Positions 1,534-25,806 of a DNA stretch of 64,000 nucleotides are shown here, one piece after another (position 1 is the stretch's first letter; each line of letters opens with the position of its first letter). The notes beneath the pieces were generated by a model. That model was given only the letters and a program-made list of their open reading frames with translations, was not told where the DNA came from and ran no database searches. The stretch is from a virus, in the IMG/VR virus record IMGVR_UViG_3300020205_001800, positions 1 to 64,000 of that record; one strand, given 5' to 3'. Position numbers and translations under genes: made by a program.

Positions 1534-2607
1534 GTGGCAACGCTAGCAACACTATCTGAACGCCTTCGCTACGAAATAGGCGACATCCCCCGCTCATTTG
1601 TTGAGGGTTTTGAAGGTGACGGAGTCACAAAACGATACCAACTCACCGTAGCTCCAGTTGAAGGCAGTAGCCTAGTAATAAAGGTAAACGGCGTTGACGT
1701 CTCTAACTCCGCATCTGTAGAAGAACAAACCGGTATGGTAATCCTGGCAGTGGCCCCACTAGCAGGTGTTGGAATTTCTATAACCGGGACAGCTTTTAAA
1801 TATTTTACAGTGGCCGAAATTGAACAGTATGTAAATACTGCGTTCATTCAACATGCTGCTAGTACAACCGATTCCAACGGAAGTCGAGCTACATTACTTT
1901 CCTTGGCTGGAATTGAAGAGTATCCACTTGTACTTTTGGCGTCAACTATGGCCCTATATACTTTAGCCACAGACGCAGCATTTGATATTGATATTATCTC
2001 TCCAGACGGAGTTTCTATCCCACGTTCTGAACGTTTCCGTCAACTTTCCGAAACTATTACCCAACGTAAAGAACAGTACAGAGAGCTATGCAACCTTCTT
2101 AACATTGGTCTGCATCGCATCGAGGTGTTTAACCTACGTCGTATTAGCCGCCTTACAAACAAGCTCGTTCCTATGTACCGACCAATGGAGATTGATGATG
2201 CTTCACTTCCGCAACGTGTGCGACTCCCAATTCCAGCGTATGGGGACATCACACCTGAAAGTACCGCTCTCACTAAAGACTTGTCAATGTACTCAGGAGA
2301 TGACTTTATCATTAAGCTTAAGTTCTCAATGGACCTTACTAACTACACTCCTAAATCTGAAATCAGACTTTTCCACACAGGTGGTCGCGCACAAATAGGT
2401 CCAGTAATTGTTGGAACATTTATAATTACAAAAACCCAATCTGTAGCCGGAGGTGTGTATGATACGCTTCAACTATTCCTTCCAGGATCTGTAACCAAAG
2501 ACTTGCCACGTACCGCGTATTACGACATACAGCTTATTGATAGTGAAAACCTAACGAAGACATATATTTCGGGCAAGGTGTTTACTAAGGAACAGGTAAC
2601 TCTGTGA
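1534..2607 (+). CDS. Neck/head-tail connector-like protein with C-terminal BppU-N-like domain
   Basis: 357 residues from a GTG with GGAGG seven bases upstream. Residues ~25-95 form a small beta domain ('KRYQLT.AP...L.IKVNGV'), of a type common in virion adaptor proteins. The central ~110-230 is helical ('[16 protein letters not shown]'). The last ~100 residues ('[18 protein letters not shown]', then '[15 protein letters not shown]') resemble the N-terminal beta-sandwich of baseplate upper proteins (BppU-N). The gene sits between the capsid unit and the collagen fibre and overlaps the fibre start by GTGA, so translational coupling is likely. I infer that it links the neck or tail to appended fibres. 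Confidence 0.6.
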
Positions 2608-7621: not shown

Positions 7622-10471
7622 ATGGCTTCTCTAGTATACCCATCCACCTCTGGTGCGGGCGTAGGTGCATTAACCTATAGCTTTGCAGCAGTCCCAGGTG
7701 CAGAATACGACACTACCGAGCTCAATGCCAGTAGCGTTTATGAATTTCGTGCTCAAGAAGAGCCACTTACAGTTGCTATCTACGCTGTAGGTAACCTAAC
7801 TAACCCTGCTGAAACTGTATCCTTAGCTAAAGGAAAAGGTTTTACACACAGCGGAACTATTGCCCGTATCCGAATCCTAACCGCAACAAGCGGCGGAGTT
7901 TCTTCTAATTCTGGTACAGGATCAACACTTCTTATTATTAAGTACAGCTCATCCACACCAACTCGTACAGGTTCTGTAAACGATGGTTTGGGCGATGTCT
8001 ACGTACACACTGAAAAGAGCCCAGACTGGTTTGCTTACGAAGGCTATGGTATGACGTCTACTCGTATTCCTATGACTGCCCGTCTTGACGGAACAGCAAA
8101 CACTGCCGCTTGGGTAGCTTGGACATACGACTCAACTGGAGCTGGTGTATATCGTTTTAGAAACACTCCTAGTACTGGAAATGGTATTGGAACTTCTAAT
8201 ACTACATTTTCTGGTATTGCAGGTAACTTCTTCTATAAGGCACTAAACAACACAACTAATACTTGGACACGTTTAGCTGATATTCCTCTACCTGTAGTTA
8301 GCGTTGAAAACGGAACTACTTTTTCTGAGCAACGCCTACGTCGTGGATTTATTTGGGATCAAGGAGACGAATTGTACGTAATGTTCCGTACAGTAGACTC
8401 TCGTACACAAACAATCAACGCAGTTCAGTACACTTCATCAAACCAATATTTCTATATCTATACAAAGGCTACAGATACTTGGACATTTGTTGGAGCTTAC
8501 AACGTCGGAAACACTGGCTATAACAGCTACGTAGATGGTCCTATGATGGCGTTTGTTCACACTATTAGCGGAGTCAAGTACTTCTACAACTGGCAGAACG
8601 AACGTTCTGGAAACGGCTTTGTTCGATACAACGTCTCTACAGGTGTTCGTGAAACCATTACAGCTGCAGCAGATACTTGGAACGAAGGTATTTACGTAAA
8701 TAACTACTTCCTTGCAACTCCTTCTCAGGGTATTGGTAACACTGACGGTGGTGCAACTGACTACCAGATTTACGACCCAACTAACAACGTATGGGCTAAG
8801 GTAACCCCTCCATCACGTTTGAATGAGGCATCTACTTGGTTCCGTGGCGGTCAGATTTTCCGTTACAACTCAACATCTTTCGGTGTTATTGGTCGTCGTA
8901 CCTATACAACAGATAACGCAGCTCCTTCTAACGGTGACCGTTACTATGGTCGACGTTTGTGGATCTATGACACAGCTACACAGTCTTTGGACCGTTGGCT
9001 AGACAAGTCTTCTGATCTAGACGACTTCTACCCACAGGCTATGCGTCCATCTCGAGATGTTCGAGGCGCCTATGTATTCCAACCTCAGGGTTCAAACTGG
9101 AACGGTCGATTCTTCCGTTTCGTAGATAACTTTGGTGGTAGCGCCGTCACTCGATTTAACCATGACTACGTAGATGTGTTTAAGCCTAAGAAGGTTGAAG
9201 CCATCGGTATGTACCGTTCTCGTGGAGAAATGTCAGTAGGTCTAAACTCAGTACTAGCTTTTGGACACGCAAGAAACGCATTTTCCCGTTCAACTACCTA
9301 CGTTATGTACACCCAACACTCACAGGATTCTGAAGTTAGAGGTGGACGTTCAAGTGGAGATACCTATGATTCAACTGTAAAGCAACGTCACGCATTTGAG
9401 TCTTGGGGTGCGGAATTGATTACAACTTCAGGAGAAGTTTACCCAGTTCTTCATGAAATGCCTATTATCCAAAGTATTTACGATGCGCAAATGCGTCGGT
9501 ACTATGTAACAGGCTTCTTGCCTTCTCGTTTAGGTTATCACTGGAATGATGGCGATATTGCAAACAACACCTACCAAAGAACACCTTGGCGTCAAGTTTC
9601 TGCAATTGTAGAAGAAGACACTGGTAAATTTTGGTACATGGACTACAACCAAACAGGTGATGAAAACTCTGGTGCGTACACTGTTGGTTGGAACCAGCAG
9701 AACTCTTACACATCTTCATCTGAATCTCCAGGAGAACTTGCTATCTACTCAAACGGTAAAGCGTTTAAGCCTGGAATTCACTTCATCCGACCTTACTCAG
9801 ACAACCACTGGGAAACATACAACATCTGGAACTTGTTCAGCACGCCATTTGGTTGGAGCCAGCGTTGGACTAACTACACTTGGTACTCTAACCAGTACAC
9901 AGGTGGAGGTATAGCCCCTCAGGGTTATCTATTTGGTCACGATGTTCTTGATAACGGCTATGTTCAGCTTGTTAAGTTTGGAACTGGCCGAATCAATGCT
10001 GTAGGTATTCCAGAAGGATCTATTTTCTGGGATGGTCGCGCATTGGTTCAGTACAGTCGTGAGACTGGAGTTGCTCCGTTTACAGCTGCTCAAACTGGCT
10101 GGCGTCGTCTGCATACAACCTCTAGCCCATACTGGTCTCAAGACACCACTATGCTACGTACACCACACGTGTGGTTTGACGGTCGCTACGCTATCTGCGA
10201 AAAGTCTGATGGCACTGGTTACTATGTATTTGACATGGATAACCTAGCGTTTGAGCCAAAGGTTATTCCGTCTCACATCCCTAATAACTCTCGTCCAACA
10301 CCTGCTTATCTAGCAGCAAACTCTGGAACAATCGGAAACGAAACCTGGCGATACTCTTACAACAAGGCTTGCCTTGGTGGAGTGGAGATCATTGCTGGAG
10401 GTTCAGAACAAGACAGCGTACGTACTTGGCGAAATCCAGGTTACTTCATCGTAAGATCTAAGGAGGTCTAA
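7622..10471 (+). CDS. Kelch-like beta-propeller putative receptor-binding protein
   Basis: 949 residues. The first ~120 residues form a beta domain ('VYEFRAQEEPLTVAIYAVGN'). From ~130 on there are repeated Kelch-like units, for example 'NNTTNTWTRLADIPLP', 'YTKATDTWTFVGAYN', 'YDPTNNVWAKVTPPSR' and 'YDTATQSLDRW'. Each has the Tyr-x-x-x-x-x-x-Trp spacing of propeller blades. The rest (~530-949) is rich in Trp, Tyr and Asn with further irregular repeats. Size, composition and position among fibres suggest a receptor-binding or adhesin protein that recognises host surface glycans (inference). No catalytic triad is recognised. Confidence 0.75.
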   Translation: MASLVYPSTSGAGVGALTYSFAAVPGAEYDTTELNASSVYEFRAQEEPLTVAIYAVGNLTNPAETVSLAKGKGFTHSGTIARIRILTATSGGVSSNSGTGSTLLIIKYSSSTPTRTGSVNDGLGDVYVHTEKSPDWFAYEGYGMTSTRIPMTARLDGTANTAAWVAWTYDSTGAGVYRFRNTPSTGNGIGTSNTTFSGIAGNFFYKALNNTTNTWTRLADIPLPVVSVENGTTFSEQRLRRGFIWDQGDELYVMFRTVDSRTQTINAVQYTSSNQYFYIYTKATDTWTFVGAYNVGNTGYNSYVDGPMMAFVHTISGVKYFYNWQNERSGNGFVRYNVSTGVRETITAAADTWNEGIYVNNYFLATPSQGIGNTDGGATDYQIYDPTNNVWAKVTPPSRLNEASTWFRGGQIFRYNSTSFGVIGRRTYTTDNAAPSNGDRYYGRRLWIYDTATQSLDRWLDKSSDLDDFYPQAMRPSRDVRGAYVFQPQGSNWNGRFFRFVDNFGGSAVTRFNHDYVDVFKPKKVEAIGMYRSRGEMSVGLNSVLAFGHARNAFSRSTTYVMYTQHSQDSEVRGGRSSGDTYDSTVKQRHAFESWGAELITTSGEVYPVLHEMPIIQSIYDAQMRRYYVTGFLPSRLGYHWNDGDIANNTYQRTPWRQVSAIVEEDTGKFWYMDYNQTGDENSGAYTVGWNQQNSYTSSSESPGELAIYSNGKAFKPGIHFIRPYSDNHWETYNIWNLFSTPFGWSQRWTNYTWYSNQYTGGGIAPQGYLFGHDVLDNGYVQLVKFGTGRINAVGIPEGSIFWDGRALVQYSRETGVAPFTAAQTGWRRLHTTSSPYWSQDTTMLRTPHVWFDGRYAICEKSDGTGYYVFDMDNLAFEPKVIPSHIPNNSRPTPAYLAANSGTIGNETWRYSYNKACLGGVEIIAGGSEQDSVRTWRNPGYFIVRSKEV

Positions 10472-11541: not shown

Positions 11542-11904
11542 ATGCCTATAGACTTTCCAAATAGCCCTACAGTAAACCAACAGTTTACTGCTGGAGATAC
11601 TACGTGGTACTGGACTGGTGCAGTCTGGCGTTTACTTATCTCCGAAGGTGTTCAAGGAGATCTAGGCCCAACCGGGCCCACAGGACCTTTAGGACCTACT
11701 GGTCCGACAGGTGCAGTATCTACTGTTCCAGGACCTACCGGCCCTACAGGACCTACAGGACCTACAGGAGCGGTATCAACTGTTCCTGGCCCTACTGGTG
11801 CCACAGGACCAACAGGTCCAGAAAACGACAACCTTGACGGTGGAGTTGCTAACACTGTTTATGGTGGCGGTATAACTATTAACGCAGGAAACGTGAACGG
11901 ATAA
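11542..11904 (+). CDS. Short collagen-like protein
   Basis: 120 residues. The N-terminal ~38 residues ('[18 protein letters not shown]', then W and LL) are a small Trp-rich module related to the 'GD.W' units in neighbouring fibres. They are followed by about 17 Gly-X-Y triplets and a short C-terminal cap. No strong Shine-Dalgarno is visible. The gene ends three bases before the next collagen-like gene. It is probably a fibre segment or minor trimeric fibre. Confidence 0.75.
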
Positions 11905-11907
11905 AAC

Positions 11908-13650
11908 ATGGCAGTTAAAATTCAGTTTAGACGCGACACTGCTTCAGCATGGTCGACTGTTAATCCAATCCTTTCTCAAGGAGAAGCTGGGTATGAATTT
12001 GATACCGGACGCTTTAAAGTTGGTAACGGTTTATCTCCGTGGAACTCACTTCCATATTCTTCTGGTGTAACGGGCCCTACTGGTCCCCTTGGACCAACTG
12101 GTGCACAATCAACTGTCACAGGTCCTACGGGTCCTACAGGAGCAACTGGCCCAACAGGCCCATCTATTACTGGACCAACAGGCGCGGCATCTTTAGTTAC
12201 TGGGCCAACAGGACCACAAGGTGTAACCGGTCCAACAGGACCGACTGGACCTACAGGAGCAACTGGTGCAGCATCTACAGTAACTGGGCCAACCGGAGCT
12301 ACCGGCGCTACTGGTCCACAAGGAACATCAATTAGTTTTAAGGGAAGTGTTGCAGCTGTTGTAAATTTGCCTGTTGGAAGTAACGTCGTTAACGATGCTT
12401 ATGTTGTCGATGCAGATGGAAATCTGTATGTTTGGAATGGCGGAGTCTGGCAAGACGTCGGACAAATTGTTGGGCCAGAGGGCCCAATAGGCGCTACAGG
12501 TGCTACCGGAGCGGACTCTACAGTAACTGGACCCACAGGCCCTTCTGGAGTTATCTCTGTAACAGGACCGGTCACAAATACTGGAACATCTACAGCAGCA
12601 ATTCTTAATATTGATCAATCAACCATTTCTATTGCTAACACTCAGGTAACCGGCCTTGGCACAGCCTCCGTAAAAGACGTCCCTGCAACTGGAGACGCAA
12701 CTGCTTCACAGGTAGTCTACGGAACTGACACTCGCCTTGCTGACACCCGTACCCCATCAGATCTTTCAGTAACAACTGGAAAAATTGTTGACGCAAACGT
12801 TACTGAAGCAAAGCTTGCCTCAGACTCTGTTACTACTGTAAAGATTACCGACGCTAACGTTACTACCGCCAAATTAGCTGCAGATGCAGTAACTACCGCT
12901 AAGATCACTGACGCTAACGTAACCACAGCTAAGTTGGCTGCAGACGCTGTGACCACTGTAAAAATTACTGATGCTAACGTTACTACAGCTAAACTAGCTG
13001 CAGACTCCGTTACAACATCTAAGATTACAGATCTTAACGTTACTACAGCTAAGATTGCAGACGGGGCAGTTACAGCAGCTAAACTTAACGGAAACGCTTT
13101 CTTAAACCTTGCTGGAAACCTAAACCAGTCCCTTTCTGTAGTGGATGTAACACCTCGCTCTGGTAATAGCAGCGCATCGCTATCTAGCGGAAACGTTTAC
13201 TTTACGTTCTTTACCCCAATGTGGTCAGCAGAAGTAAACTCAATTAGCGTATCTTCCGCCTCAGTTCTTACCTCAGGAGTCTCTTTAATTAGATTCGGGT
13301 TGTACACATTTAATGATGCTACTGGAGCGGCTACTCTTGTAGCTAGAACTTCTGCTTCTACATCAATCTTTGCTTCTGCAAATACACTAGCTACCTTGGT
13401 ATTTAATACTACGGGCGGTTATCCAGCTACATACACCCTCGCTCCAGGAGTAAGATATGCTCTAGGAGTGATCATAGTTGCCTCTAACCCAGGAAGCGTC
13501 TACACCGCATACAACTCTCAACCTCTAGTACTTAGCTCACTATCTCCAAGAACTACGGGCGTAGTTGGTGCACAGACCGATTTGCCAGCAACCACTACAG
13601 TATCCACTGCAACAAGCGTTGCCGTGTGGGGAAGGTTTAGTACATCATGA
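11908..13650 (+). CDS. Collagen-like tail fibre with MTD-N-like head domain
   Basis: 580 residues. Residues ~3-48 ('[12 protein letters not shown]', then '[18 protein letters not shown]') match the N-terminal domain of the major tropism determinant and similar phage fibres. Gly-X-Y repeats follow (~52-145 and ~190-215), interrupted by one globular unit (~146-190) closely similar to the first module of the 2604 protein. Residues ~287-395 are ten-residue repeats of the '[20 protein letters not shown]' type, and a beta-rich C-terminal domain (~400-580) is the likely receptor-binding tip. Its last base pairs overlap the start of a 37-residue gene. Confidence 0.85.
12769..13090 (+). repeat. Tandem ~30/60-bp coding repeats
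   Basis: About ten consecutive 30-bp units encode alternating ten-residue repeats (V-T-T-A-K-I/L-x-x-x-x). DNA copies have diverged mainly at third positions, so the protein pattern is under selection. The geometry suggests a beta-helical or triple-stranded shaft. Confidence 0.8.
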
Positions 13651-13771: not shown

Positions 13772-14824
13772 ATGAAGGTAGCTGTCTACGCGATAGCGTT
13801 GAACGAAGAACAATTTGTAAAGGCTTGGTATGAATCCGCTAAAGAAGCTGACTACCTACTTATTGCTGACACTGGTTCTACTGATGGCACTGTTGCCCTT
13901 GCTAAAAGTCTTGGGATAAATGTAGTTGAAGTTTCAATTAAACCGTGGAGATTTGATGATGCTCGTAATGCTAGCCTCGCTTCTATCCCTGGGGATATTG
14001 ATTACTGCATTGCTCTGGATCTCGACGAAGTTTTAATACCTGGGTGGCGTGAACACCTAGAAACAGTCCCAACACAAACAACCAGACCCCGATACAAGTA
14101 CACGTGGAGCTGGGCTCCCGATGGTTCTCCAGGGCTTCAATACGGCGGGGATAAGATTCATTCTAGGCACGGATACCGTTGGAAGCACCCGGTACACGAA
14201 GTTTTAACCTGTGACCGCATAGAGCAAGTAGAGCACTGGGTTGACTTAGAAATCCACCATCATCCAGATAACTCTAAGCCTAGATCTCAATACATGCCGT
14301 TGCTAGCTCAGTCTGTAAAGGAAGATCCTTACGACGATCGTAATGCTTTCTATTACGCAAGAGAATTGTTTTTCTATGCCCAGTATGAGCAATCTACGGA
14401 AGAGTTTAAAAGGCACCTTTCTCTACCCAAAGCTTTGTGGCGTCCTGAGCGTGCAGCCTCTATGAGGTATATTGCTAAAATGGAAGATGATTTTCAAATT
14501 GCTTGGGATTGGTTAGTTAAGGCACACCAAGAAGATCCGGGAAGAAGAGAGCCTTTAGTAGACGCAGCTAAACTGCTATACGAAAATAAGTCTTGGACAG
14601 CTTGCCTACAAGCTGCAGAGAAAGCTATTGCTATAACTGAAAAACCTTTGGACTATCTATGTGAAGAGTTCGCCTGGAGCTCCGCACCCTGGGACTACGC
14701 AGCTATAGCTGCTTATAACCTGGGAAAGTTTGAGCTAGCCCTGACTTACGGAACCAAAGCGGTAGAATTGAACCCGAACGACCCCCGTCTTATAGCTAAC
14801 CTATCTTTCTACTCAAAGGAGTAA
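13772..14824 (+). CDS. Family 2 glycosyltransferase with C-terminal TPR-like repeats
   Basis: 350 residues, ATG with CGGAG upstream. Residues 1-95 are a textbook GT2 nucleotide-sugar domain: 'YAIALNEEQFV', 'IADTGSTDGT', 'WRFDDARN' and a D-L-D-E metal site near residue 91. Residues ~205-345 are helical repeats with TPR character ('AAEKAIAITEKPLDYL', 'AAYNLGKFELALTYG'). It transfers a sugar from an activated donor, probably to protein; the TPR part may dock the substrate. It sits between fibre genes, so glycosylation of collagen-like or other fibres, or of the host surface, is a reasonable hypothesis. Confidence 0.9.
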   Translation: MKVAVYAIALNEEQFVKAWYESAKEADYLLIADTGSTDGTVALAKSLGINVVEVSIKPWRFDDARNASLASIPGDIDYCIALDLDEVLIPGWREHLETVPTQTTRPRYKYTWSWAPDGSPGLQYGGDKIHSRHGYRWKHPVHEVLTCDRIEQVEHWVDLEIHHHPDNSKPRSQYMPLLAQSVKEDPYDDRNAFYYARELFFYAQYEQSTEEFKRHLSLPKALWRPERAASMRYIAKMEDDFQIAWDWLVKAHQEDPGRREPLVDAAKLLYENKSWTACLQAAEKAIAITEKPLDYLCEEFAWSSAPWDYAAIAAYNLGKFELALTYGTKAVELNPNDPRLIANLSFYSKE

Positions 14825-15733: not shown

Positions 15734-15963
15734 TGGGACTTAAAAGATATAATTCAGGAAACTCTGAGTGGGAAGCTTTTGGAACCCCACAGCTAAACCC
15801 TGCAAGCTTGGGTATTACAACAACCGCTATTAACGCTGTTGATAAAACCAACGGATTTGTGACAACTGCGTCTACATCTTCAGGAGTTGTACGTAACATT
15901 TTTGTTAGTACTAACGATCCTTCTGGTGGAGTTGACGGGGACATCTGGGTTAAGTATATCTAA
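15733..15963 (+). CDS. Small GDIWVK-motif virion protein
   Basis: 76 residues. It starts 'GLKRYNSGNSEWEAFG', a short Trp-containing strand pair typical of fibre attachment segments. It ends 'NIFVSTNDPSGGVDGDIWVKYI', the same motif as in the 15164 protein. It is coupled by TAATG overlaps on both sides. The function is unknown; a link segment or fibre adaptor is likely from context. Confidence 0.65.
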   Translation: MGLKRYNSGNSEWEAFGTPQLNPASLGITTTAINAVDKTNGFVTTASTSSGVVRNIFVSTNDPSGGVDGDIWVKYI

Positions 15964-17162
15964 TGCCAGGTCAAGTCAAGGTTGGTGGTTCCTGGAAGTC
16001 TGCCTCAGGTCTTTCTGTAAAGGTAGGCGGCCAATGGAAAACTGGTACTTCCGCGTTTGTTAAAGTGGGAGGTGTTTGGAAGCAATGGTTTGCTTCTGTA
16101 ATCACTGATACTTTTGCACGCGACAGTACTGTTACCGGCCTAGGTACATCAGAGACCGGACAACCTTGGGCCTCTCTTAAAGGTAACTGGCGTGTAAGTG
16201 GGTCTCAAACTGCGCTCTCAGACGATGCCGGCTCAGTGTATGCCCTATCTTCAGTAAACTTTGGTAGCCCCGACTCAACAGTGCAAGCTTCAGTATCTCC
16301 TGGAATAGGAACTGCTTTTTGGGTAACGGATGCTAACAACTGGTGGGCTGCTGTTTCCTATACCACTTCAACATCGGCCTTTGTACCTATTACCTATCCT
16401 TGCCAAGAGTGCGTACAAACAAGCTGTACAGGTTGTTCTAGCTACACATGTTCCTGTAACAATGGTTCTGCTCCTACATATACCTGTCCTTGCGGAAACG
16501 GTTCACCAGGACAAGCCGCTACTCCAGGATCCGCAGACACAATGAACTGTCTCTGTCCTACCTCTACCGCACACCAAGTTCAGTGCGGATCAACATGTAC
16601 CTCTTGTTCTGGTCTTTGTCCTAATGGCGGTCCAGCAGGGTGCACAGGCTGTCTTAATACTGCCCCAGAAAGAACTTGCTTTGGTAACTGTTACTACAGA
16701 GACTCAAACTGTGCTTGTAACAACGCACAACCCGGAAGCCCATATATTGCACCTGTTGCAGATACTATGAACTGCTCTTGTAACAATGGCGGCCAACCCA
16801 CCTACAACTGCTGCTGTGGATATAGCTACCCTTGTCAACAATGCTATACAACGACGTGCCAAGGTACTCAAGAAGTCATAACTTACTATTACTGGCTACG
16901 ACTTATATCTTCAGTTAATGGGACAATAAGCACTCCAATCTCAGACGTTTCTTTAAGCTCCAGCCCAGCTGCAATACGAGTAACCACACTCGGCAATACA
17001 ATAACCGCTAGAGCGTACTCCAACACAAACTACACTACCCAGCTTGGTTCTACCATGACTCATACCCCAGGATCGCCTGTAAAAGGACCTTCTGTTGGTA
17101 TACTAAAGTCACCGTCTACACAACAAGGCTCAACTGTCGACTTATTCTCGACAACGATATAG
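15963..17162 (+). CDS. Adhesin-like virion protein with 28-cysteine insertion
   Basis: 399 residues. The N-terminus has three K-V-G-G-x-W-K units (near residues 5, 20 and 35). Residues ~50-145 and ~305-399 look like the two halves of a concanavalin/LamG-type beta-sandwich ('DTFARDSTVTGLGTSETGQP', 'NWRVSGSQTALSDD', later 'YYYWLRLISS' and 'ITARAYS'). Between them, residues 147-299 hold 28 cysteines with repeated 'DTMNC.C', 'CNNG' and 'TY.C.CG' motifs. The insertion could bind metal or be disulfide-knotted outside the cell. Its place after fibre genes suggests a surface-exposed tip; the role is unknown. Confidence 0.75.
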   Translation: MPGQVKVGGSWKSASGLSVKVGGQWKTGTSAFVKVGGVWKQWFASVITDTFARDSTVTGLGTSETGQPWASLKGNWRVSGSQTALSDDAGSVYALSSVNFGSPDSTVQASVSPGIGTAFWVTDANNWWAAVSYTTSTSAFVPITYPCQECVQTSCTGCSSYTCSCNNGSAPTYTCPCGNGSPGQAATPGSADTMNCLCPTSTAHQVQCGSTCTSCSGLCPNGGPAGCTGCLNTAPERTCFGNCYYRDSNCACNNAQPGSPYIAPVADTMNCSCNNGGQPTYNCCCGYSYPCQQCYTTTCQGTQEVITYYYWLRLISSVNGTISTPISDVSLSSSPAAIRVTTLGNTITARAYSNTNYTTQLGSTMTHTPGSPVKGPSVGILKSPSTQQGSTVDLFSTTI

Positions 17163-17172
17163 GAGAAATAGT

Positions 17173-17418
17173 ATGGCAAAAGATCCGTTTTCACGTCCGG
17201 CACGACCTTGGGATTTGTTTAATAAGAATCTAGGTCGAGTTGGGGAAACTATTGCCGAAGACCGCTTAGCTATTTGTAAGGCGTGCCCCAAGCTACTCCC
17301 TACAGGAAACTGCTCTGAGTGCGGATGCTTTATGTCTCAAAAAGTAAAGTTACCTAATGCGGAGTGCCCACTAGGTAAATGGGGCCACGTAGAAGTTACA
17401 TTTAAGGAGGAAAATTAA
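17173..17418 (+). CDS. Small zinc-ribbon-like protein
   Basis: 81 residues, AGGAG upstream of the ATG. Cysteines occur as 'CKACP', then 'CSECGCF' and 'AECPLGKW', a compact four-or-more Cys zinc site seen in short proteins of many T4-like and actinobacterial phages. The acidic C-terminus overlaps the next ATG (TAATG). It is located between the Cys-rich adhesin and neck genes; nucleic-acid or assembly factor binding is possible but unproven. Confidence 0.75.
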   Translation: MAKDPFSRPARPWDLFNKNLGRVGETIAEDRLAICKACPKLLPTGNCSECGCFMSQKVKLPNAECPLGKWGHVEVTFKEEN

Positions 17419-17636
17419 TGAGTCTTAATAGCAAAAATAACCTACCACCAGTTAAACTAGCTTTTGTAATTGATGGTAAAATTGTAGAAACTTTTTATTC
17501 AGATCATCGTTTTGCAGCTATTCTTCTAAGCGACCCGATTGTTGTAGACGTTACTGAGATGCCAAGCCACCTAAGTTACGGATACGACTACCACTCTGAA
17601 ACGGGAACATTTACCCCACCTGACAAAGGACACTAA
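17418..17636 (+). CDS. Hypothetical protein
   Basis: 72 residues, TAATG-coupled to both neighbours, with GGAGG upstream. Pattern 'KLAFVIDGKIVETFYSDHRFAAILLSDPIVVDV' is a small alpha/beta unit found in short phage proteins next to tail genes. No cysteines, no membrane segment. The function is unknown. Confidence 0.7.
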   Translation: MSLNSKNNLPPVKLAFVIDGKIVETFYSDHRFAAILLSDPIVVDVTEMPSHLSYGYDYHSETGTFTPPDKGH

Positions 17637-18250
17637 TGCGCGGCGAGTACCCTGTAGGGCGATTCAACATTAACCATGAGCGCCAATCTATTATCGGCGG
17701 TACTACCAAAGACGTCGTACGCATGGTTGGGTACCAAATTGAATGGTGGCTCTATAGATCCGACCTGACTACCGTTGACGATATCTACGACGTAGGTAAC
17801 AACAGCGGCGGACGTATCTGGGACGGCCCGCACCACATTGATGTTATTAACGCAAGACTTACTCAAGGCGTAACAATGCAAAATGAGATGGGTGCCTATA
17901 ACACTGACGTCTTGGATATTACTATCAACATGGACGTTATTGATGGTTCCAGCCTATCTGGTGGGGAATCCCTACCAATCCCAGAGTTGCGGTATTTGCC
18001 CTCTAACCCCGACGCCTATCTACGCGATAGGATTGTCTTTAAGAACCAAGTCTTTAGGCCCCAGCAAATTCTGCCTAAAGGAATCATTACAAACGACTAT
18101 ACTCTTTTTGGCATTCAATGTGTTCAAGTTAACCCAGAAGAATTGGTTAATGACCCACAATTTAGTGCCTATGCTAACTACAGCTCTTTTGGGGGCCGCA
18201 ACGTCTATGCGTTTGGTGAATCCCGTGAGGGCACCCCACCAACTAACTAA
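17636..18250 (+). CDS. Probable head-completion/neck protein
   Basis: 204 residues, ATG overlapping the preceding stop. It is a mixed alpha/beta protein with 'EIPELRYLPSNPDAY' and 'DRIVFKNQVFRPQQI' type segments. It lies between the fibre cluster and the tail completion/sheath genes, the usual position of neck (gp13/gp14-like) proteins in contractile phages. The family assignment is inferred from synteny and length only. Confidence 0.6.
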   Translation: MRGEYPVGRFNINHERQSIIGGTTKDVVRMVGYQIEWWLYRSDLTTVDDIYDVGNNSGGRIWDGPHHIDVINARLTQGVTMQNEMGAYNTDVLDITINMDVIDGSSLSGGESLPIPELRYLPSNPDAYLRDRIVFKNQVFRPQQILPKGIITNDYTLFGIQCVQVNPEELVNDPQFSAYANYSSFGGRNVYAFGESREGTPPTN

Positions 18251-18259
18251 GGAGAAAAT

Positions 18260-18400
18260 ATGTGCGCTACCTGTGGCTGTGGAATGCCTAAGAATAAGCA
18301 TGGCCAGAAGACCCTAGCTAAGGCCAATAAGAAATTTGATAAGAAAAAGCCCTGTACCTGCGGCACATGTAAGTCGTGTAAAGCAAAGAAAAAGAAGTAA
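18260..18400 (+). CDS. 46-residue Lys/Cys-rich zinc-knuckle-like protein
   Basis: ATG five bases after AAGGAG. It has N-terminal 'MCATCGCG' and C-terminal 'CTCGTCKSC' clusters (seven Cys in all), separated by a Lys-rich helix, and ends in a run of Lys. The two Cys clusters could bind one or two metals. The strong Shine-Dalgarno and the terminator directly after the stop support a real gene. A nucleic-acid-binding role is a guess. Confidence 0.65.
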   Translation: MCATCGCGMPKNKHGQKTLAKANKKFDKKKPCTCGTCKSCKAKKKK

Positions 18401-18406
18401 CGACTT

Positions 18407-18428
18407 AGCCCCCGAAAGGGGGCTTTTT
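18407..18428 (+). terminator. Intrinsic terminator after fibre/neck unit
   Basis: AGCCCCC (18407-18413), a GAAA tetraloop, then GGGGGCT (18418-18424) running into TTTTT. It ends the transcript that contains the fibre and neck genes. Confidence 0.9.
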
Positions 18429-18504
18429 CGTTTATTCTTGTTTTTGACGCCGGAGCAATCCGGAACCCTGCAGCTTAACCCTTAACCTCTCTGGAGGATT
18501 TATA

Positions 18505-18678
18505 ATGGCTATTTACCTCATAGATCGCCTCGCTCGGCTTGAAACTGAAGCTGACCGTGAGCAGTTCCTTCGTGGTGCCTTAGGTTTAGACAAATTCCAT
18601 GCCGGCTCTTTAGTAGCTGGTTGGCTTGCGGGAAGTCTACTTACTAACGCGTCGCGGAGCATACGTGAGAATCGCTGA
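18505..18678 (+). CDS. 57-residue hypothetical protein
   Basis: ATG with CTGGAGGA nine bases upstream, the first gene after a terminator. It is amphipathic: 'YLIDRLARLETEADREQFLRG', then a Gly/Leu-rich stretch 'AGSLVAGWLAGSLLTNAS'. The second part could be a membrane-associated helix. It overlaps the next gene by 14 bases. It begins the tail operon; the function is unknown. Confidence 0.6.
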   Translation: MAIYLIDRLARLETEADREQFLRGALGLDKFHAGSLVAGWLAGSLLTNASRSIRENR

Positions 18679-18988
18679 GATATTAGAAGCTGCTGGTAAG
18701 CAGGGCGTTGCATTTGAAGCTGAGCAACTCTCAGCAGAGTTACAGCAATACGCACGAGCCGCAGGCTGGCCGGAAAACATCTGTACTCAACTACGCATTC
18801 GTCAAGAAGACGGAGAGTACATTGCGTCATTCCCAACAAACATTACTGACCAAGTAAACGACCTTGAGTACGGTACCCAAGACTCGGCACCTAGCCCAGT
18901 CATTAGGACTTTTTTAACTACTCAAATTAAAACCCACCACTTTGAGCGTGGGATTTCCGATAGCTTAAAAGAGTCGGGGGTTGAGTAA
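18665..18988 (+). CDS. Hypothetical tail-operon protein
   Basis: 107 residues from a GTG at 18665, chosen because GGAG lies five bases upstream; a TTG at 18626 would give 120 residues but would overlap the previous gene further. N-terminal helices 'IAEILEAAGKQGVAFEAEQLSAEL' are followed by mixed strands. It overlaps the next ATG (TAATG). From its position before the tail terminator and sheath genes it may be a head-tail joining protein. Confidence 0.6.
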   Translation: MRIAEILEAAGKQGVAFEAEQLSAELQQYARAAGWPENICTQLRIRQEDGEYIASFPTNITDQVNDLEYGTQDSAPSPVIRTFLTTQIKTHHFERGISDSLKESGVE

Positions 18989-19617
18989 TGCCTATTATTA
19001 TTAATGAAGACAAGGCTCTTAAAGCATCCTTGACTGGAATAACCGTCTCTGATAGCGGAAACCCAACACGCCCAGTAGGCGTGTGGTTTGGTCAACCAGA
19101 CCTTGAAATTCGCCAACAGTCTTTTCCTTACATTACTATTGATTTTATTAGCTACTCTGAAGATACCAGCAGAGCTCACCGTGGTGACATTGATATGTCT
19201 TACTTCCCAGAAGGTGCGAACCCTGGGCCTGTAAATGAGGATGGATCTGGAACACTTCAGTACACAACTGAGTATCCCATCCCAGTTAATTTAGATTATC
19301 AAATTACAACTTGGGCTCGTCAGCCTAGACATGACCGTCAAATTATGGGTCAGATGCTTGCAGGAGGGCGTCTACCTTTACGATTTGGCTTACTAGTTAT
19401 TCCAGAAGATTTAACCGTACGCCGGTTAGATTTTCTTGGACATACAAAAAGAGATACAACGGATTCCAATGGAAAACGTTTATTTTCTAATGTTTATAAC
19501 GTTAGAATAAGCGCTGAAGTTCTTCCGTCTATCTTAGATCAGAAGTACGCAGTAACAGAGCCACCGATTATCACGTTCAACAGTCAGTCCAATACCTTCG
19601 TACCACTAAACCTTTAA
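18988..19617 (+). CDS. Probable tail terminator/sheath-completion protein
   Basis: 209 residues. Mixed alpha/beta pattern 'RPVGVWFGQPDLEIRQQSFPYITIDFISYSED', with a long central strand-rich region and 'VPVNLDYQITTWARQPRHDRQIM', which fits tail-completion proteins that accept the last sheath/tube ring. It lies directly before the sheath gene as in many myoviruses. The function is inferred from fold pattern and synteny. Confidence 0.65.
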   Translation: MPIIINEDKALKASLTGITVSDSGNPTRPVGVWFGQPDLEIRQQSFPYITIDFISYSEDTSRAHRGDIDMSYFPEGANPGPVNEDGSGTLQYTTEYPIPVNLDYQITTWARQPRHDRQIMGQMLAGGRLPLRFGLLVIPEDLTVRRLDFLGHTKRDTTDSNGKRLFSNVYNVRISAEVLPSILDQKYAVTEPPIITFNSQSNTFVPLNL

Positions 19618-19664
19618 TATTCGGCGCCCCAAAGAAAACAACCTAACCCTAAGGAGTAAAAAGG

Positions 19665-21209
19665 ATGACTACATACAGTCGCCCCGGAGTCTTCATCAGT
19701 GAAGTCGCCATCCCGCAGACAGTCGCGTCTGCAAATAACGGAACTGCTAGAGGTGCTTTTACAGGTACTTTTGCAAAAGGACCAACAGTTGAACCCGTTC
19801 TATTGAATAGCTGGTACGAATTTACTAAGACTTTTGGTAGTATTTCAGCAGCTTACCCAGCAACAATCGCTCTATACACTTTCTTCGCTAACGGTGGACG
19901 TCAAGTTTACGTAAAGCGCGTATTGGGTACCGGAGCTTTGCCAGCAACAGTGACTATAAAAAACCGTGCTGCTACCCCTCTCGACGCACTTACTATTGAA
20001 GCTGTTAACCAAGGAACTTGGGGAGATGATCTAAGCGTAAGCGTTACTTCAGCTTCAACATCTACCTTTAATTTAGTTATCTCAGATTCTAATGGAATCC
20101 TTGAGCAGTTTACTGACCTAAGCATGGTCACTACTAATTCACGTTATGTAGTTTCCTACGTTAACTCAGCGTCTAACTACGTACGCGTAATAGATGAAAA
20201 CAGCGCTACAACAGGTTCAGATAGACAACCTGCCATAGCAACTTCAGGGCTAGGCAGCGGAGCAAACGGTGCAGCGCCAACACGCACACAGTTCCTAAAC
20301 GCTTTGTCTACCTTTGACTCTATTAACAGCCCACTAATCATGAACAACGCTGATGCAGCATACACATTTGCATCTGGTGGAGACGAAGCAACAGAGCTAG
20401 TCCTAATGTTAAATCTACAAGCTGATATCGCGGGATACTGCGAAAATCGTGGAGATGCATTTGCTATCGTGGATATCCCAGTTGGATACACACAATCTGA
20501 AGCGTCTAACTACATCCTCGACCTAGTTGCAGATCCAGACTTTTCTGCTGCAGGTGACGGAGGAAACACAGCAACTTACTGGCCATGGATTGTTACGCCA
20601 GATAGCTTAAGCGCAGCTTCAGGAGCAACACGTCTTGTACCACCAGGACCGGCAGCTATGGGTCAATACCTTGCAAACGACGCTTCACGCGGAGTTTTCA
20701 AGACACCTGCAGGTTTTGGTACACGCATTGCTAACGCAGTAGCTGTAGAGCGCAACCTAACAAACCTAGAGCTTGATGCTATTAATGCTCAACGAAACCC
20801 AATTAACGCAATTCGTAACGTACCTGGTGCGGGAATTGTAATCATGGGCGGCCGTACTCTAAACAACACACCTGGCGATCGTTATATTAACGTCCGCCGC
20901 TCACTAATTTTCTTAAAGAAGGAATTGACTGATCGAAGCAATTTCGCAATCTTTGAGAATAATGATGCTCGTTTGCAGAATCAGCTTCGCACATCACTAG
21001 GTAACTTCCTCCGTTCATACTGGTCACAGGGTGGACTTCGTGGAAATACCCCAGCAGAAGCATTTTTCGTACGCTGCGATGCTTCAAACAATAGCGCTGC
21101 CGATCGTGAAAACGGTCGAATTAACATCGAAATCGGTGTCGCTCTTGAATACCCAGCAGAGTTCATTGTGATCAGCATTGGGCAGGTCACCGGAAGCGCT
21201 TCGGCGTAA
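19665..21209 (+). CDS. Contractile tail sheath protein
   Basis: 514 residues, ATG with AAGGAG upstream. The start 'SRPGVFISEVAIPQTV' and 'GTFAKGPTVEPVLLNSW' are hallmarks of phage sheath subunits, as is the C-terminal domain with 'RRSLIFLKKEL' and 'NTPAEAFFVRCD'. It polymerises around the tail tube and contracts on infection. It is followed 14 bases later by the tube gene. This gene establishes the myovirus morphology. Confidence 0.95.
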   Translation: MTTYSRPGVFISEVAIPQTVASANNGTARGAFTGTFAKGPTVEPVLLNSWYEFTKTFGSISAAYPATIALYTFFANGGRQVYVKRVLGTGALPATVTIKNRAATPLDALTIEAVNQGTWGDDLSVSVTSASTSTFNLVISDSNGILEQFTDLSMVTTNSRYVVSYVNSASNYVRVIDENSATTGSDRQPAIATSGLGSGANGAAPTRTQFLNALSTFDSINSPLIMNNADAAYTFASGGDEATELVLMLNLQADIAGYCENRGDAFAIVDIPVGYTQSEASNYILDLVADPDFSAAGDGGNTATYWPWIVTPDSLSAASGATRLVPPGPAAMGQYLANDASRGVFKTPAGFGTRIANAVAVERNLTNLELDAINAQRNPINAIRNVPGAGIVIMGGRTLNNTPGDRYINVRRSLIFLKKELTDRSNFAIFENNDARLQNQLRTSLGNFLRSYWSQGGLRGNTPAEAFFVRCDASNNSAADRENGRINIEIGVALEYPAEFIVISIGQVTGSASA

Positions 21210-21223
21210 GGAGATAGAAAAAA

Positions 21224-21877
21224 ATGGCTCAAGCCTTTACAAACGTACTTAGTACATTACAAACGGATCCAATCCGTAATTTTCGGTTCCTGGTTGAATT
21301 CCTACCGTCTAATAACACAGCTGCCAATGAATGGGGTATTAACGCAAAGATGGGCTTTACCTCAGTGTCAGGCCTAACTGTTGCAACAGAGTCTATTGCT
21401 TACCGTGAAGGCGGATACAATACGACTATGCACCAGTTCCCAGGTCAAACCTCATTTAGCCCTGTGACATTTAGCCGTGGAGTTCTTCTTGGAAATTCAC
21501 AGCAATATGCATGGATGCGTCGCTTGTTCTCAGTTATCCAAACAGGAGCTAAGGCAGGCGTAGGTTCAGACTTCCGTTGCGATATCGACATCTCAGTACT
21601 TAGCCACCCAAATGCTAAAGGCTTAGTTGTTCAAGACGGAGCTCAAGCTGGAACTACAGCAGAACCACACGTAGCTCTACGATTCCGTATCTACAATGCT
21701 TGGATCACAAACCTTTCATACAGCAGCCTAGATGCAGGCGGAAGCGCTTACATGGTTGAAGAAATGACTGTTGTTCACGAAGGTTGGGATGCAAACTACG
21801 CAAAGGACTACAAGGCATCAGCAACAGACTTTGGTGACACACCAACAGACTCAGCAAACATAAGTAACGCTGTCTAA
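21224..21877 (+). CDS. Tail tube protein (T4 gp19-like)
   Basis: 217 residues, AAGGAGA upstream. The pattern 'DPIRNFRFLVEF', 'GFTSVSGLTVATESIAYREGGYN' and 'PGQTSFSPVTFSRGVL' is the conserved core of the gp19/tail-tube family. It stacks as hexameric rings to form the inner tube through which DNA passes. The gene order sheath-tube-chaperone-tape measure is canonical. Confidence 0.93.
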   Translation: MAQAFTNVLSTLQTDPIRNFRFLVEFLPSNNTAANEWGINAKMGFTSVSGLTVATESIAYREGGYNTTMHQFPGQTSFSPVTFSRGVLLGNSQQYAWMRRLFSVIQTGAKAGVGSDFRCDIDISVLSHPNAKGLVVQDGAQAGTTAEPHVALRFRIYNAWITNLSYSSLDAGGSAYMVEEMTVVHEGWDANYAKDYKASATDFGDTPTDSANISNAV

Positions 21878-21900
21878 TCCCCTAACAGAAGGTACACAAC

Positions 21901-22719
21901 ATGGACACAAAAGTAAACGCAGCACTAAATCCCGATTTAGCTAACCAACTAGCTCAAGAAGCTATGACCGTTGAAGTTCAGGAATCGGTGGGAGCGCCTC
22001 CGGCGATCACTATCCCATCGCTTCCTGAAACTTCGGTGGAACTTCCTGCGGGCTATTACGAAGGCTTTGACGGAGTACTAGACACTATTGCAGAAGTTAG
22101 AGAGCTCAACGGAGCTGATGAAGAGGCTATTGCCAAAATCACAGATCCAGGAAAAGCTTTGCTAGCAATACTAGAACGAGCAACAGTATCTGTAGGAGGA
22201 AAGCCAGTTACTAAAGAGGTTCTAAACAACCTACTAGCTGGAGATCGAGAAATGCTTATTCTAGCAATTAGAAAAGCTACGTTTGGATCTGAAGTTACCG
22301 TAGAGGCAGTTTGCTGCGACGGTATGGAAAACATTGTTATTGACCTAAATAAAGATGTTCCTATTAAGACCTTAGATGACCGAATCTCTGATCGCATGTT
22401 TTACATGGATATTAAGCCTGGACGAATTAAGGTGTTTCTACCAACTGGAGATACACAGGCAAAGATTATTAACTCTGCTGATAAAAACTCAGCTGAGCTA
22501 GATACCTTGCTTTTAACTAACTGCGTCGTTGAGCTTAATGACATGCCAATTATGAGCCCAAACACTATTCGTAACTTTGGTATTAAAGATCGTAGAAACA
22601 TTCTAGACGAGATTGCTAAGCGTAATCCTGGTCCACAGCTAAGTGAAATTAAAAAGGTTGCTTCTTGCGGCCAGGAGGTAAGCCTGCCACTAACACTGGC
22701 AGATTTGTTTCGCTCATGA
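21901..22719 (+). CDS. Tail assembly chaperone (T4 baseplate/gp26-like family)
   Basis: 272 residues. It has a ~70-residue low-complexity N-terminus, then a helical/beta core with a paired cysteine site ('VCCDG' near residue 138 and 'SCGQ' near 257) and the typical end 'LPLTLADLF'. These features fit the tail-assembly/baseplate family that includes T4 gp26. It sits between tube and tape measure, where chaperone genes with frameshift extensions are found. The next reading frame directly past its stop is open and conserved-looking, so a longer fusion is likely made (see separate entry). Confidence 0.75.
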   Translation: MDTKVNAALNPDLANQLAQEAMTVEVQESVGAPPAITIPSLPETSVELPAGYYEGFDGVLDTIAEVRELNGADEEAIAKITDPGKALLAILERATVSVGGKPVTKEVLNNLLAGDREMLILAIRKATFGSEVTVEAVCCDGMENIVIDLNKDVPIKTLDDRISDRMFYMDIKPGRIKVFLPTGDTQAKIINSADKNSAELDTLLLTNCVVELNDMPIMSPNTIRNFGIKDRRNILDEIAKRNPGPQLSEIKKVASCGQEVSLPLTLADLFRS

Positions 22720-22721
22720 AA
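22708..22721 (+). other. Candidate +1 frameshift site
   Basis: Zero frame reads TTT CGC TCA TGA; a one-base skip gives TCA-T-GAA-ATC and enters the downstream frame. A slow stop codon in the A site is a known trigger of +1 shifting (RF2 gene, Listeria phage PSA tail gene). No strong downstream pseudoknot was identified by eye. Confidence 0.5.
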
Positions 22722-22867
22722 TCAGCTATCAAAATGTAATTGATGCCTATGACATGCTAGCCCAGTACTATCCGGGTTGGTCATTAGTAGACATAAGAAA
22801 TTTGTCCGTAAGAGAACGACTAGTGTTTTTATCCAAAGCAATTATGAGGCCTAAGGCGGTGATGTAG
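22718..22867 (+). CDS. Tail chaperone frameshift extension (probable +1 product)
   Basis: A 49-codon open frame, +1 relative to the upstream gene, begins exactly at its TGA stop and ends at TAG, which overlaps the GTG of the tape measure gene. It encodes 'EISYQNVIDAYDMLAQYYPG', then 'DIRNLSVRER', matching the second half of tail chaperones. There is no Shine-Dalgarno and no early start codon (first ATG at 22754), so expression by ribosomal frameshifting near the TCA-TGA-A sequence is the simplest explanation. Independent initiation cannot be excluded. Confidence 0.6.
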   Translation, partial: EISYQNVIDAYDMLAQYYPGWSLVDIRNLSVRERLVFLSKAIMRPKAVM

Positions 22868-25806
22868 TGGCAGACCCAAAGGGAAATATGGGCGCCGGTA
22901 TGGAAGACTTTACCGGTCAAAAAGGCGTATCTAAACTCATCGAAACTGGCACTAAAGGTTTTGGATCTTGGTTAAAGAACTTTAAAGAAGTTTTAACCGT
23001 TGCTGAAAAAACTAGAGACGTTGTAAAACAGACGGCAGATATTCAGGCGGGCAAGGGTTCCAACGGCAGCAAACTTGGTGCTGCCAAGATGGGGCCCGGA
23101 GCCTTCTCTGAACAGATTGGTCTTAAAGGCGGAAAAGCTTTTGCCGAAGAAATAGGTTACACGGGTACTCGTGAAAGCCGTATGGGAGCAGTAGCCCAAG
23201 GCGTAATGGCTGCAGGTTCGCTTGGTATGGGCTTAATGCCAAACACAATGTCGGCTGTAGGGCAAAGACTTGTAGCTGAGCAAATAGGCATGTTCTCTGC
23301 GGGAAATAGAAACCCTAGAGACATAATTAAGCAAGCTAACTCTATGACAGGTGGAGCAGCAACAAGTGCTGGAGCACCTACACGTGCTATGGGAATTATG
23401 TTGTCCCAAGGCGGATACGGTTTAAACTCAGGCTCTACTAGAAACCTTATGGGGCAGCTGGCGGGTGCAAGCGCCATTTCAGGCATGTCTATGGAACAAG
23501 TAGCCTCTTCCACTGCCGGAGCAAGTGGAATGACTTTCTTACGTTTAGGCGTAAGGTTGCGTGACCAAAATGGAAGCATACGTCCATACAACCAACTTGT
23601 AAATGAAATTTACCCAAAGATCTGGCGTGGGGATCCAAAGAACCCAGAATTAATTTTTAACCGTCAAAGCCGAGAAGGATTTACTCTTTCACAAATTACT
23701 GGCGGAGACGAAGGCCTATTTAACATTCTTGCTACGCTTCTTGTGCAACGTGCTAAAAACAAGAAGCCACTAACTGCTGCAAATTTAAAAACAACTAAGG
23801 GCGCGTTGGCCATGGCAGGCAACCCTAATGGGCTAATGCAGTCTGGTTTAGCACAGCAAGCTTCAGAAAACAGATTGCTTGGGGCAACAGAGAGCGGTTT
23901 AGTATCAGGCTACAAGGGGGCACTGGATACCTCTACAGCAGTTAACAACGGCCTTTCAGGTATGGCTGAGCTTCTACCTGGCGTTGTAGATGGACTGGGT
24001 AAGTTAAAGGGATTTTTAGAAACGTTTCCATCTACGGGAAATGCTGGATCAACTTTGTCAGGTTTAGCTGGAAATCTTGGAACCACATTGTTAGCCGGAA
24101 GAATGTTAGGTCTAGGTGGCCCAGGTAAAGTAGCCGTATCAGGTGCAGCAAAAACATTAAGCAAGGGCGTGCCAGTTCTAGGTGCAGCAATAAGTGCCTA
24201 CGGTGGATACAAAGCCGGCAAAGGAAGCAATAAGTTTAATTGGGGATCACTCCTCTCTTCTGCTGGAATAGGCGCCGCTGGTGGCGCTGCAGTAGGAGCA
24301 ATGGGGCTTGGAGTTGCTGCGGTCCCAGGTGCGGTTCTAGGTGCGCTTATTGCTGGCGGTAGTAATGCGGCGGGACAATTGCTTGGGCGAAACCAAGGCG
24401 GTGGTGACGGGAACGAATCCATGAGCGCAAACCTTGGTGGAGGAGCAGATAGTCTTATGGCTCCAGGAACTCACGTGTCTTCAGGATACGGCTCAAGAAA
24501 AGATCCTAACGGTTCTGGAAGACAACACCACAACGGTATTGACTACGCCATGCCTGTGGGCAGCGCAGTTGTTGCGGCTGCCGATGGAAAAGTTGTAATG
24601 ATTAGAAAACAACCCGGAAAGTCTAGAAGCTTTGGTTTGTACATGGTTCTGCAACATAAAGGTTTTTATACATACTACGCACACTTAAGTCAAACAATAG
24701 CTCGACTAGGACAAGAAGTGCGTCAGGGAGAAGTTATTGCAAAGTCTGGTGGAGAAAAAGGCGGACCAAACTCAGGCTCATCAACGGGCCCACACCTACA
24801 CTTTGAGGTTCGTAAATCTCTTACTAGCCCAAACAGCTCAGTAAACCCAACAAGTTTGTTTGGAAAATTAAAAAGCAAAATAAGCAGCCTTCTTGGAAAC
24901 AAAGATCCAGACGGAACTAAGCTTGCGGCGCAAGTAACCAAGAAGTACAGCAACTCTTTAGACGTGCTTGGCATGGGTGCAAACGGCTATGGAAACGCAT
25001 ACACCGGAACTCGTTTGGCAGACTTGCTAAAGAGTGGAAGCGCAATTGGTGTTCAAGACATGATGAACTTTGACAAGATGGGTGTAAATAAAAACCTATC
25101 TGCAGAAGAGCAGGCAGAGTTTAGCCAACACACTGCAAGTTCTGGAGACGGCGGAGGCATGGCATACGGCTCTCGTAAGGGACTAATGTCAGCTCTGTAC
25201 CAGCATGGATTTAGAGGAAAAGGATTAGCAACAGCATTTGGCGTTGCCTTGGCAGAATCCGGCGGCATGTCTAGAGCGTTTAACGGTAAGGGTAGAGACG
25301 AGTCATACGGCGTATTCCAAATTAACATGACTGATAAAGACCCTAAGAGTCCTAATATGGGTACTAATCGTCGTAAGCAATATAACCTAGCTAACAATGA
25401 AGCATTGTTCAATCCCAACACAAACCTTTCAACTGCCTATGGAATCTCGGCAAAGGGTAAATGGTGGGAGCAGTGGGCTACTTACAACGATGGTACTTTT
25501 ACAAAGTATTTAGATGACGCCCAAACAGCCGCACGTAAAGCTGGCGTACCTATTAATTTCTACGGCGAAGGTCGAACAAAAGAAGGTCCGGCATACCTTC
25601 ACGATGATGAAATGGTATTGAATAAGCAACAGGCTGATAAAGTTCGCGGTGGACTAGCGGGCGGTACAGCTCATGATCACCAAGTTGTAGTTAATATGGT
25701 AGTAAACATAGCTCAAGCTGGACAAGCAGAAGTACACGTACTTCTACAGCGCTTTAAAGAAGCTCTTGCTCAAGATAACGTTATTAAGCAGATTGGTTCG
25801 TATTAA
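22867..25806 (+). CDS. Tape measure protein with M23 peptidase and lysozyme-like domains
   Basis: 979 residues, GTG overlapping the preceding TAG. Helical, Gly/Ala-rich N-terminal two thirds, with hydrophobic stretches at ~430-510. Residues ~535-660 are an M23 metallopeptidase (LytM) with 'HHNGIDYAMPVGS' near 553 and 'GPHLHFEV' near 642, giving the zinc ligands. Residues ~770-890 form a lysozyme/transglycosylase-like domain ('AFGVALAESGGMS', catalytic Glu near 797; 'SYGVFQIN'). It sets tail length and digests both peptide and glycan parts of peptidoglycan during DNA entry. The hydrolase domains are well supported; tape-measure identity comes from size and synteny. Confidence 0.9.
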   Translation: MADPKGNMGAGMEDFTGQKGVSKLIETGTKGFGSWLKNFKEVLTVAEKTRDVVKQTADIQAGKGSNGSKLGAAKMGPGAFSEQIGLKGGKAFAEEIGYTGTRESRMGAVAQGVMAAGSLGMGLMPNTMSAVGQRLVAEQIGMFSAGNRNPRDIIKQANSMTGGAATSAGAPTRAMGIMLSQGGYGLNSGSTRNLMGQLAGASAISGMSMEQVASSTAGASGMTFLRLGVRLRDQNGSIRPYNQLVNEIYPKIWRGDPKNPELIFNRQSREGFTLSQITGGDEGLFNILATLLVQRAKNKKPLTAANLKTTKGALAMAGNPNGLMQSGLAQQASENRLLGATESGLVSGYKGALDTSTAVNNGLSGMAELLPGVVDGLGKLKGFLETFPSTGNAGSTLSGLAGNLGTTLLAGRMLGLGGPGKVAVSGAAKTLSKGVPVLGAAISAYGGYKAGKGSNKFNWGSLLSSAGIGAAGGAAVGAMGLGVAAVPGAVLGALIAGGSNAAGQLLGRNQGGGDGNESMSANLGGGADSLMAPGTHVSSGYGSRKDPNGSGRQHHNGIDYAMPVGSAVVAAADGKVVMIRKQPGKSRSFGLYMVLQHKGFYTYYAHLSQTIARLGQEVRQGEVIAKSGGEKGGPNSGSSTGPHLHFEVRKSLTSPNSSVNPTSLFGKLKSKISSLLGNKDPDGTKLAAQVTKKYSNSLDVLGMGANGYGNAYTGTRLADLLKSGSAIGVQDMMNFDKMGVNKNLSAEEQAEFSQHTASSGDGGGMAYGSRKGLMSALYQHGFRGKGLATAFGVALAESGGMSRAFNGKGRDESYGVFQINMTDKDPKSPNMGTNRRKQYNLANNEALFNPNTNLSTAYGISAKGKWWEQWATYNDGTFTKYLDDAQTAARKAGVPINFYGEGRTKEGPAYLHDDEMVLNKQQADKVRGGLAGGTAHDHQVVVNMVVNIAQAGQAEVHVLLQRFKEALAQDNVIKQIGSY

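Follow-up and report, generated by a model that had tools for sequence, protein, structure and literature searches.

The 399-residue protein encoded at positions 15963–17162 (+ strand) of a viral contig belongs to a widespread family of phage proteins in which one loop of a predicted concanavalin A (ConA)-like β-sandwich carries a cysteine-rich, hypervariable insert. We consider it probable that this is a receptor-binding tail protein in which a β-hairpin is extended as a stalk that is laddered by disulphides and ends in an exchangeable tip. The stretch of DNA analysed here (the window) comprises 64 kb of a 100,626-bp virus record, and all positions refer to the window unless stated otherwise. 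No description of this architecture was found among open-licence papers.

The gene was defined by its open reading frame, family comparisons and structure prediction; its parts all lie on the + strand. Residues 1–43 (15963–16091) form a triple VKVGGxWK repeat that is weakly shared with phrog_25859, phrog_36019 and phrog_21772 and is probably an attachment segment. This repeat also occurs in Vibrio and Burkholderia phage proteins, and other N-termini take its place in relatives. The N-terminal half of the scaffold (residues 44–128, 16092–16346), assigned by alignment and by AlphaFold at pLDDT >90, ends in the signature FWVTDANNWW. It leads into a predicted ascending stem strand (residues 126–146, 16338–16400), a long strand in AlphaFold with a counterpart at residues 102–119 of family member L068. 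The cysteine-rich insert (residues 147–299, 16401–16859) follows, and then a descending stem strand predicted by AlphaFold (residues 298–318, 16854–16916) and the C-terminal half of the scaffold (16917–17159; pLDDT >90 and alignment). The first cysteine is residue 147 (nt 16401) and the last residue 299 (nt 16859), with none in the rest of the protein; the hypervariable block slightly exceeds this stretch, covering residues 129–307 or thereabouts (nt 16347–16883).

A sequence-only reading of this DNA had counted 28 cysteines in the 153 residues at 16401–16859, which is exact and far above chance. It had also suggested internal duplication, and paired copies of three modules bear this out. On the ascending side, repeat comparison within the insert identified module A (YPCQEC, 16395–16412), module B (CSCNNGSAPTYTCPCG, 16449–16496) and module C (ADTMNCLC, 16533–16556); on the descending side, it identified module C (ADTMNCSC, 16758–16781), module B (CSCNNGGQPTYNCCCG, 16773–16820) and module A (YPCQQC, 16827–16844). 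The repeated words are thus YPCQxC, CSCNNGxxPTYxCxCG and ADTMNCxC, each present twice. Between the mirrored modules lies a centre (16557–16757, containing CFGNCYYRDSNCAC) that may serve as a knob. The resulting order, A-B-C-centre-C-B-A with similar distances to both ends, and the palindromic cysteine spacing described below go beyond what had been recorded earlier.

AlphaFold was run on the 399-residue protein with 36 family sequences. The scaffold was modelled confidently (pLDDT mostly >90), and the two stem strands were predicted to be long and antiparallel, bordering the cysteine block exactly. Over the insert, pLDDT was <50 at residues 152–257 and 266–295, so that no disulphide was predicted directly. 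For L068, which has a shorter insert, AlphaFold yielded a better scaffold and the same stem picture; a ladder was not formed. When the L068 model was used in Foldseek searches, the best PDB matches were ConA-like domains, among them 8zdp_v, the central fibre protein gp20 of mycobacteriophage Douge (E=3.4e-4, probability 1.00); further matches were GH43 C-terminal ConA-like domains and L-type lectins. Searches against BFVD matched minor tail and DUF7257 proteins of Rhodococcus, Gordonia, Arthrobacter, Mycobacterium and Streptomyces phages, among them the DUF7257 protein of Rhodococcus phage Finch (E=4.3e-5). The modelled scaffold is accordingly predicted to be a two-sheet antiparallel sandwich of the ConA-like lectin/glucanase type, and the earlier proposal of a concanavalin/LamG-type β-sandwich split by the insert was upheld by both AlphaFold and Foldseek. 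The DUF7257 Pfam profile gave 0 matches among 26 members at E<=1, and hhalign against Finch gp34 (E=0.36) detected no sequence homology; our claim is therefore limited to a shared fold and does not extend to DUF7257 membership. Finch gp34, a DUF7257 protein of 207 residues, has no cysteine-rich insert, indicating that the cysteine block is an added element.

Two viral-contig scans together with scaffold HMMs recovered 134 ORFs in which both halves of the scaffold were present, with 58 distinct inserts among them. Four later scans that used divergent members as queries added 15 more inserts, which served as a held-out set, for a total of 73 distinct inserts from viral metagenome contigs. The family is thus real and widespread. 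The insertion site is identical in all members, at one loop of the ConA-like sandwich; alignment showed that all of them have the signature (F)WVTDxxNW(W) 5′ of the insert and, following it, a conserved second half. Insert length varies between about 64 and 384 residues and cysteine number between 4 and 40, and the scaffold has almost no cysteine across the family. When the window was compared with the DNA of L003, 12889–16216 aligned at 70% and 17082–23173 at 75%; the insert did not align. No relative was found in cellular genomes (one scan of genome contigs) or in plasmids, and isolate phages yielded no relative, the sole match being the short N-terminal VKVGG repeat. A frameshift or assembly artefact, which would have undone the sequence-only reading, is ruled out by homologues with the same scaffold and a cysteine-rich insert at the same site in many viral contigs and by protein-level constraint on the cysteine codons: in close pairs, synonymous changes of these codons are frequent while the cysteines are retained.

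The cysteine count was even in all 73 distinct inserts (58/58 in the first set and 15/15 in the held-out set). Given that the family members are related, the independent parity events are fewer than 73; the inserts fall into 29 insert clusters and 48 distinct combinations of cluster and count. Other ORFs in the family loci that encode four or more cysteines had even counts in 33 cases and odd counts in 17. By our own arithmetic, the chance that 29/29 clusters would be even is about 6e-6 at that baseline and 2e-9 at one half. Even parity is the signature that would be expected where each cysteine has a partner inside the insert. Moreover, close pairs mostly differ at 0, 2 or 4 cysteine sites, cysteines being mostly gained or lost pairwise. 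Compared with L053, L054 lacks four cysteines, a pair from the base of each arm, ascending and descending alike. Three aligned cysteine sites differ between L009 and L044, yet both totals are even, so that paired change is imperfect site by site. The sequence-only reading had left the choice between a metal cluster and disulphides; judged from these sequence comparisons, disulphide bonding is strongly favoured.

Phage proteins are synthesized in a reducing cytoplasm. Neither a thioredoxin nor a glutaredoxin was recognisable in the 100,626-bp record, whose distal 36 kb was covered by family searches, which argues against thiol oxidation encoded by the phage itself; given the reducing cytoplasm, oxidation would then have to take place after lysis or depend on host factors. 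A search for Erv1/ALR gave no match anywhere and so has no bearing on thiol oxidation.

The mirror order of modules was also seen, in the same kind, in L022, L057 and L087. The list of gaps between cysteines was palindromic for the insert in the window (p=0.0007). Across the family, 27/68 inserts had p<0.05 and 0/68 had p>0.95; by cluster, 9/27 had p<0.05 (Stouffer p=1.2e-7). Exceptions were L003, L005 and several short inserts. A sign test of module order gave 9 negative and 10 positive cases, several of the positives being a single long module that entered the count twice. The two arms had equal repeat numbers in L033 (5 CTG..GGCG units and 5 TYTR units) and L005 (5/5), as determined by regular expression, and counting by eye gave 6/6 cysteines in the arms plus a knob pair in L068 and six CxC against six CxxC motifs in L101. 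Support for an equal height of cross-arm repeats was modest (p=0.0024, in a test that includes related inserts). In L033, each of the five CTG..GGCG units has four cysteines and the opposite arm has none; this 5/5 match suggests that arms may pair as rungs even where a cross-arm bond is missing.

Variation within the inserts appears in blocks and modules. L059 and L094 are >90% identical around a swapped block within the insert, and L010, L015 and L018 have stalk modules in common and different centres. Conversely, one knob sequence can be found on different stalks: CPxGCYYSxFF in L010, L057 and L059, and GxxCVDPETLQP in L018, L068 and relatives. Two differing copies of the cysteine-insert adhesin, each with an even cysteine number, adjoin within one phage (L045, L130). 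A reverse transcriptase (PF00078, RVT_1) was absent from 24 records, many of them fragments. On this basis, diversification by a diversity-generating retroelement (DGR) was set aside, and recombination between short repeats or modules seems the likelier route of insert variation.

The gene is part of a structural module, that of a phage with a contractile tail. It comes after collagen-like fibre genes and is itself followed by genes for a sheath, a T4 gp19-like tube, a tape measure bearing M23 and lysozyme-like domains, and baseplate J; this context and the structure matches point to a tail location for the adhesin. Directly downstream, 17173–17418 (+) encodes an 81-residue DUF6171 protein with six invariant cysteines (CxxC..CxxCxC..C), identified by Pfam and synteny as a candidate partner. 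A DUF6171 gene lies downstream of the adhesin in 51/56 distinct loci, within 400 nt in 44/56, and always encodes six cysteines. The linkage spans very different phages. DUF6171 also occurs in isolate cyanophages and in phages of Stenotrophomonas, some of which carry it away from the tail region, and no adhesin relative was found there; it is thus often a neighbour of the adhesin but no exclusive partner. The sequence-only reading had nominated both small cysteine-rich genes downstream as partners. Close linkage held for DUF6171, whose dedicated role in adhesin assembly is possible at most, and exclusivity did not; the Cys/Lys-rich protein of 46 residues at 18260–18400 (+) was dropped, being present in 2/127 loci searched and not conserved with the family. 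WhiB genes were found in 8/24 records, the adhesin's own included, which suggests actinobacterial hosts. The own record contains three WhiB-like regulators, at 40048–40371 and 50359–50700 of the window and at 79176–79379 (−) of the record.

Several other explanations of the insert were weighed. Chief among them is that small cysteine-knot domains, independent of one another and closed by local CxC, CxxC and C-loop disulphides, are strung together into a multivalent adhesive surface with no stalk. Local even-cysteine units do exist (the four-cysteine units of L033, which face a cysteine-free arm, are an example), cross-arm pairing does not follow from parity alone, and AlphaFold yields no ladder. 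However, such a string is at odds with the palindromic cysteine gaps, the loss of a cysteine pair from the base of each arm in L054, the equal unit numbers in arms of which one has single-cysteine units (L068) and the antiparallel stem predicted by AlphaFold, and we regard it as rather doubtful. Somewhat less likely still is a role of the protein in virion decoration or assembly in place of receptor binding, with DUF6171 as a zinc-binding assembly partner. The close downstream linkage of DUF6171 and the position of the gene 5′ of the sheath and tube genes, adjoining other small structural ORFs, would fit such a role, but the ConA-like lectin fold is common to central fibre and minor tail proteins, and localised hypervariability is typical of host-recognition parts.

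A cysteine cluster binding metal (Zn, Fe-S or Cu) at the fibre tip was suggested by the very high cysteine density with CxC and CxxC motifs, and metal sites use even sets of cysteines as well. Yet 31/73 counts are 2 mod 4, so that Cys4 sites alone cannot account for the parity, which makes a metal site of the Cys4 kind alone improbable. Nearly all inserts contain little His, and no cysteine spacing, of the Cys4/Cys3His kind or otherwise, is conserved family-wide. Pfam and PHROGs gave no consistent domain in the family inserts, which also speaks against the earlier concern that the cysteine stretch might be a known zinc-binding domain, and a search of solved structures by sequence gave no match to the insert. 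The metal half of the earlier suggestion has thus become very improbable. Least credible of all, to the point of being discarded, is a neutral, recombination-driven low-complexity repeat with no selected structure. Some members do contain simple repeats (GCTGY in L039, CYQT in L068) and lengths vary widely; against this, parity is invariably even, held-out set included, cysteines are kept through synonymous codon change in close pairs, and the insert is confined to one site of a conserved scaffold.

In the preferred reading, that of a receptor-binding tail protein with a laddered stalk, the hypervariable insert would take the place of the turn of one β-hairpin in the ConA-like sandwich, and the strands of this hairpin would run on outward as an antiparallel stem. 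The insert would go out and back as two arms joined by disulphides, many of them between the arms as in a ladder, and its far end would bear a small variable tip, or knob, presumably facing the receptor as the sequence-only reading had supposed. Paired rungs could be added, lost or exchanged, leaving no free cysteine, so that the length and sequence of the insert could change very fast on a constant scaffold. Such change may let the phage track shifting receptors on its hosts, which are probably actinobacterial. A more specific proposal, which we hold to be evenly balanced between right and wrong, is that the insert forms a modular disulphide-laddered hairpin solenoid, each rung consisting of an ascending and a descending unit with an even cysteine sum; this would be an unrecognised architecture, a phage counterpart of the bovine ultralong CDR-H3, in which new specificities arise as whole rungs or tips are added or exchanged with no free thiols.

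The bovine ultralong CDR-H3 is a β-sandwich loop extended as a β-ribbon stalk with a disulphide-rich knob of variable cysteine number and pattern (PMC5994613). The likeness lies in the extension of a single sandwich loop, rich in cysteines that vary in number and pattern. In contrast to the antibody, fold and organism are unrelated, the phage insert reaches 384 residues and 40 cysteines, the cysteine rungs seem to extend along the stalk, and diversity arises through evolution instead of somatically. Phage receptor binders diversified by DGRs, such as Mtd and the tentaclins (PMC10743442), likewise combine a conserved scaffold with hypervariation that is confined to part of a protein for host recognition. 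However, they undergo point changes in a repeat of fixed length, whereas here length, modules and cysteines change, the fold is ConA-like and not that of a C-type lectin, and no reverse transcriptase was found in the 24 records. Actinobacteriophage minor tail/DUF7257 proteins and Douge gp20 have the same ConA-like sandwich by Foldseek and a tail location, but sequence homology to them was not detectable, and Finch gp34, the one DUF7257 member examined, differs in having no such insert. The central-fibre domains of Douge bind mycobacterial glycans (PMC13033339). Legume lectins, the L-type lectins VIP36 and ERGIC-53, and the GH43 C-terminal ConA-like domain resemble the scaffold in overall sandwich fold, but show no detectable sequence similarity to it, and the insert is missing from them.

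If this reading is true, the lectin-like scaffold of many environmental tailed phages bears a binding arm that is stapled by disulphides and evolves naturally, a case of convergence with the stalk-and-knob antibody of cows. It would represent a new, retroelement-free route to rapid receptor-binding evolution, with heavy use of disulphides by a virus that is assembled in a reducing cytoplasm, and might offer a new binding scaffold for protein engineering. Together, the parity and palindrome statistics would predict 14 bonds, nested, in the 399-residue protein.

Other features of the window were also recorded. Long collagen-like fibre proteins with GPTGPTG repeats are encoded at 2604–5108 and 11542–13650, and within the latter, 11908–13650 encodes a repeated TAKLADxxVTTxKI(A/T)DxNV block. 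The 949-residue tail-region protein at 7622–10471 had a marginal Kelch match (E=0.048) and is possibly a β-propeller adhesin. Inside the fibre region, 13772–14824 encodes a glycosyltransferase family 2 domain fused to TPR repeats. Finally, an 878-residue repetitive ORF rich in Pro, Glu, Thr and Ser lies at 57573–60209 (−), where the GC/AT skew is unusual and the opposite strand carries long overlapping ORFs.
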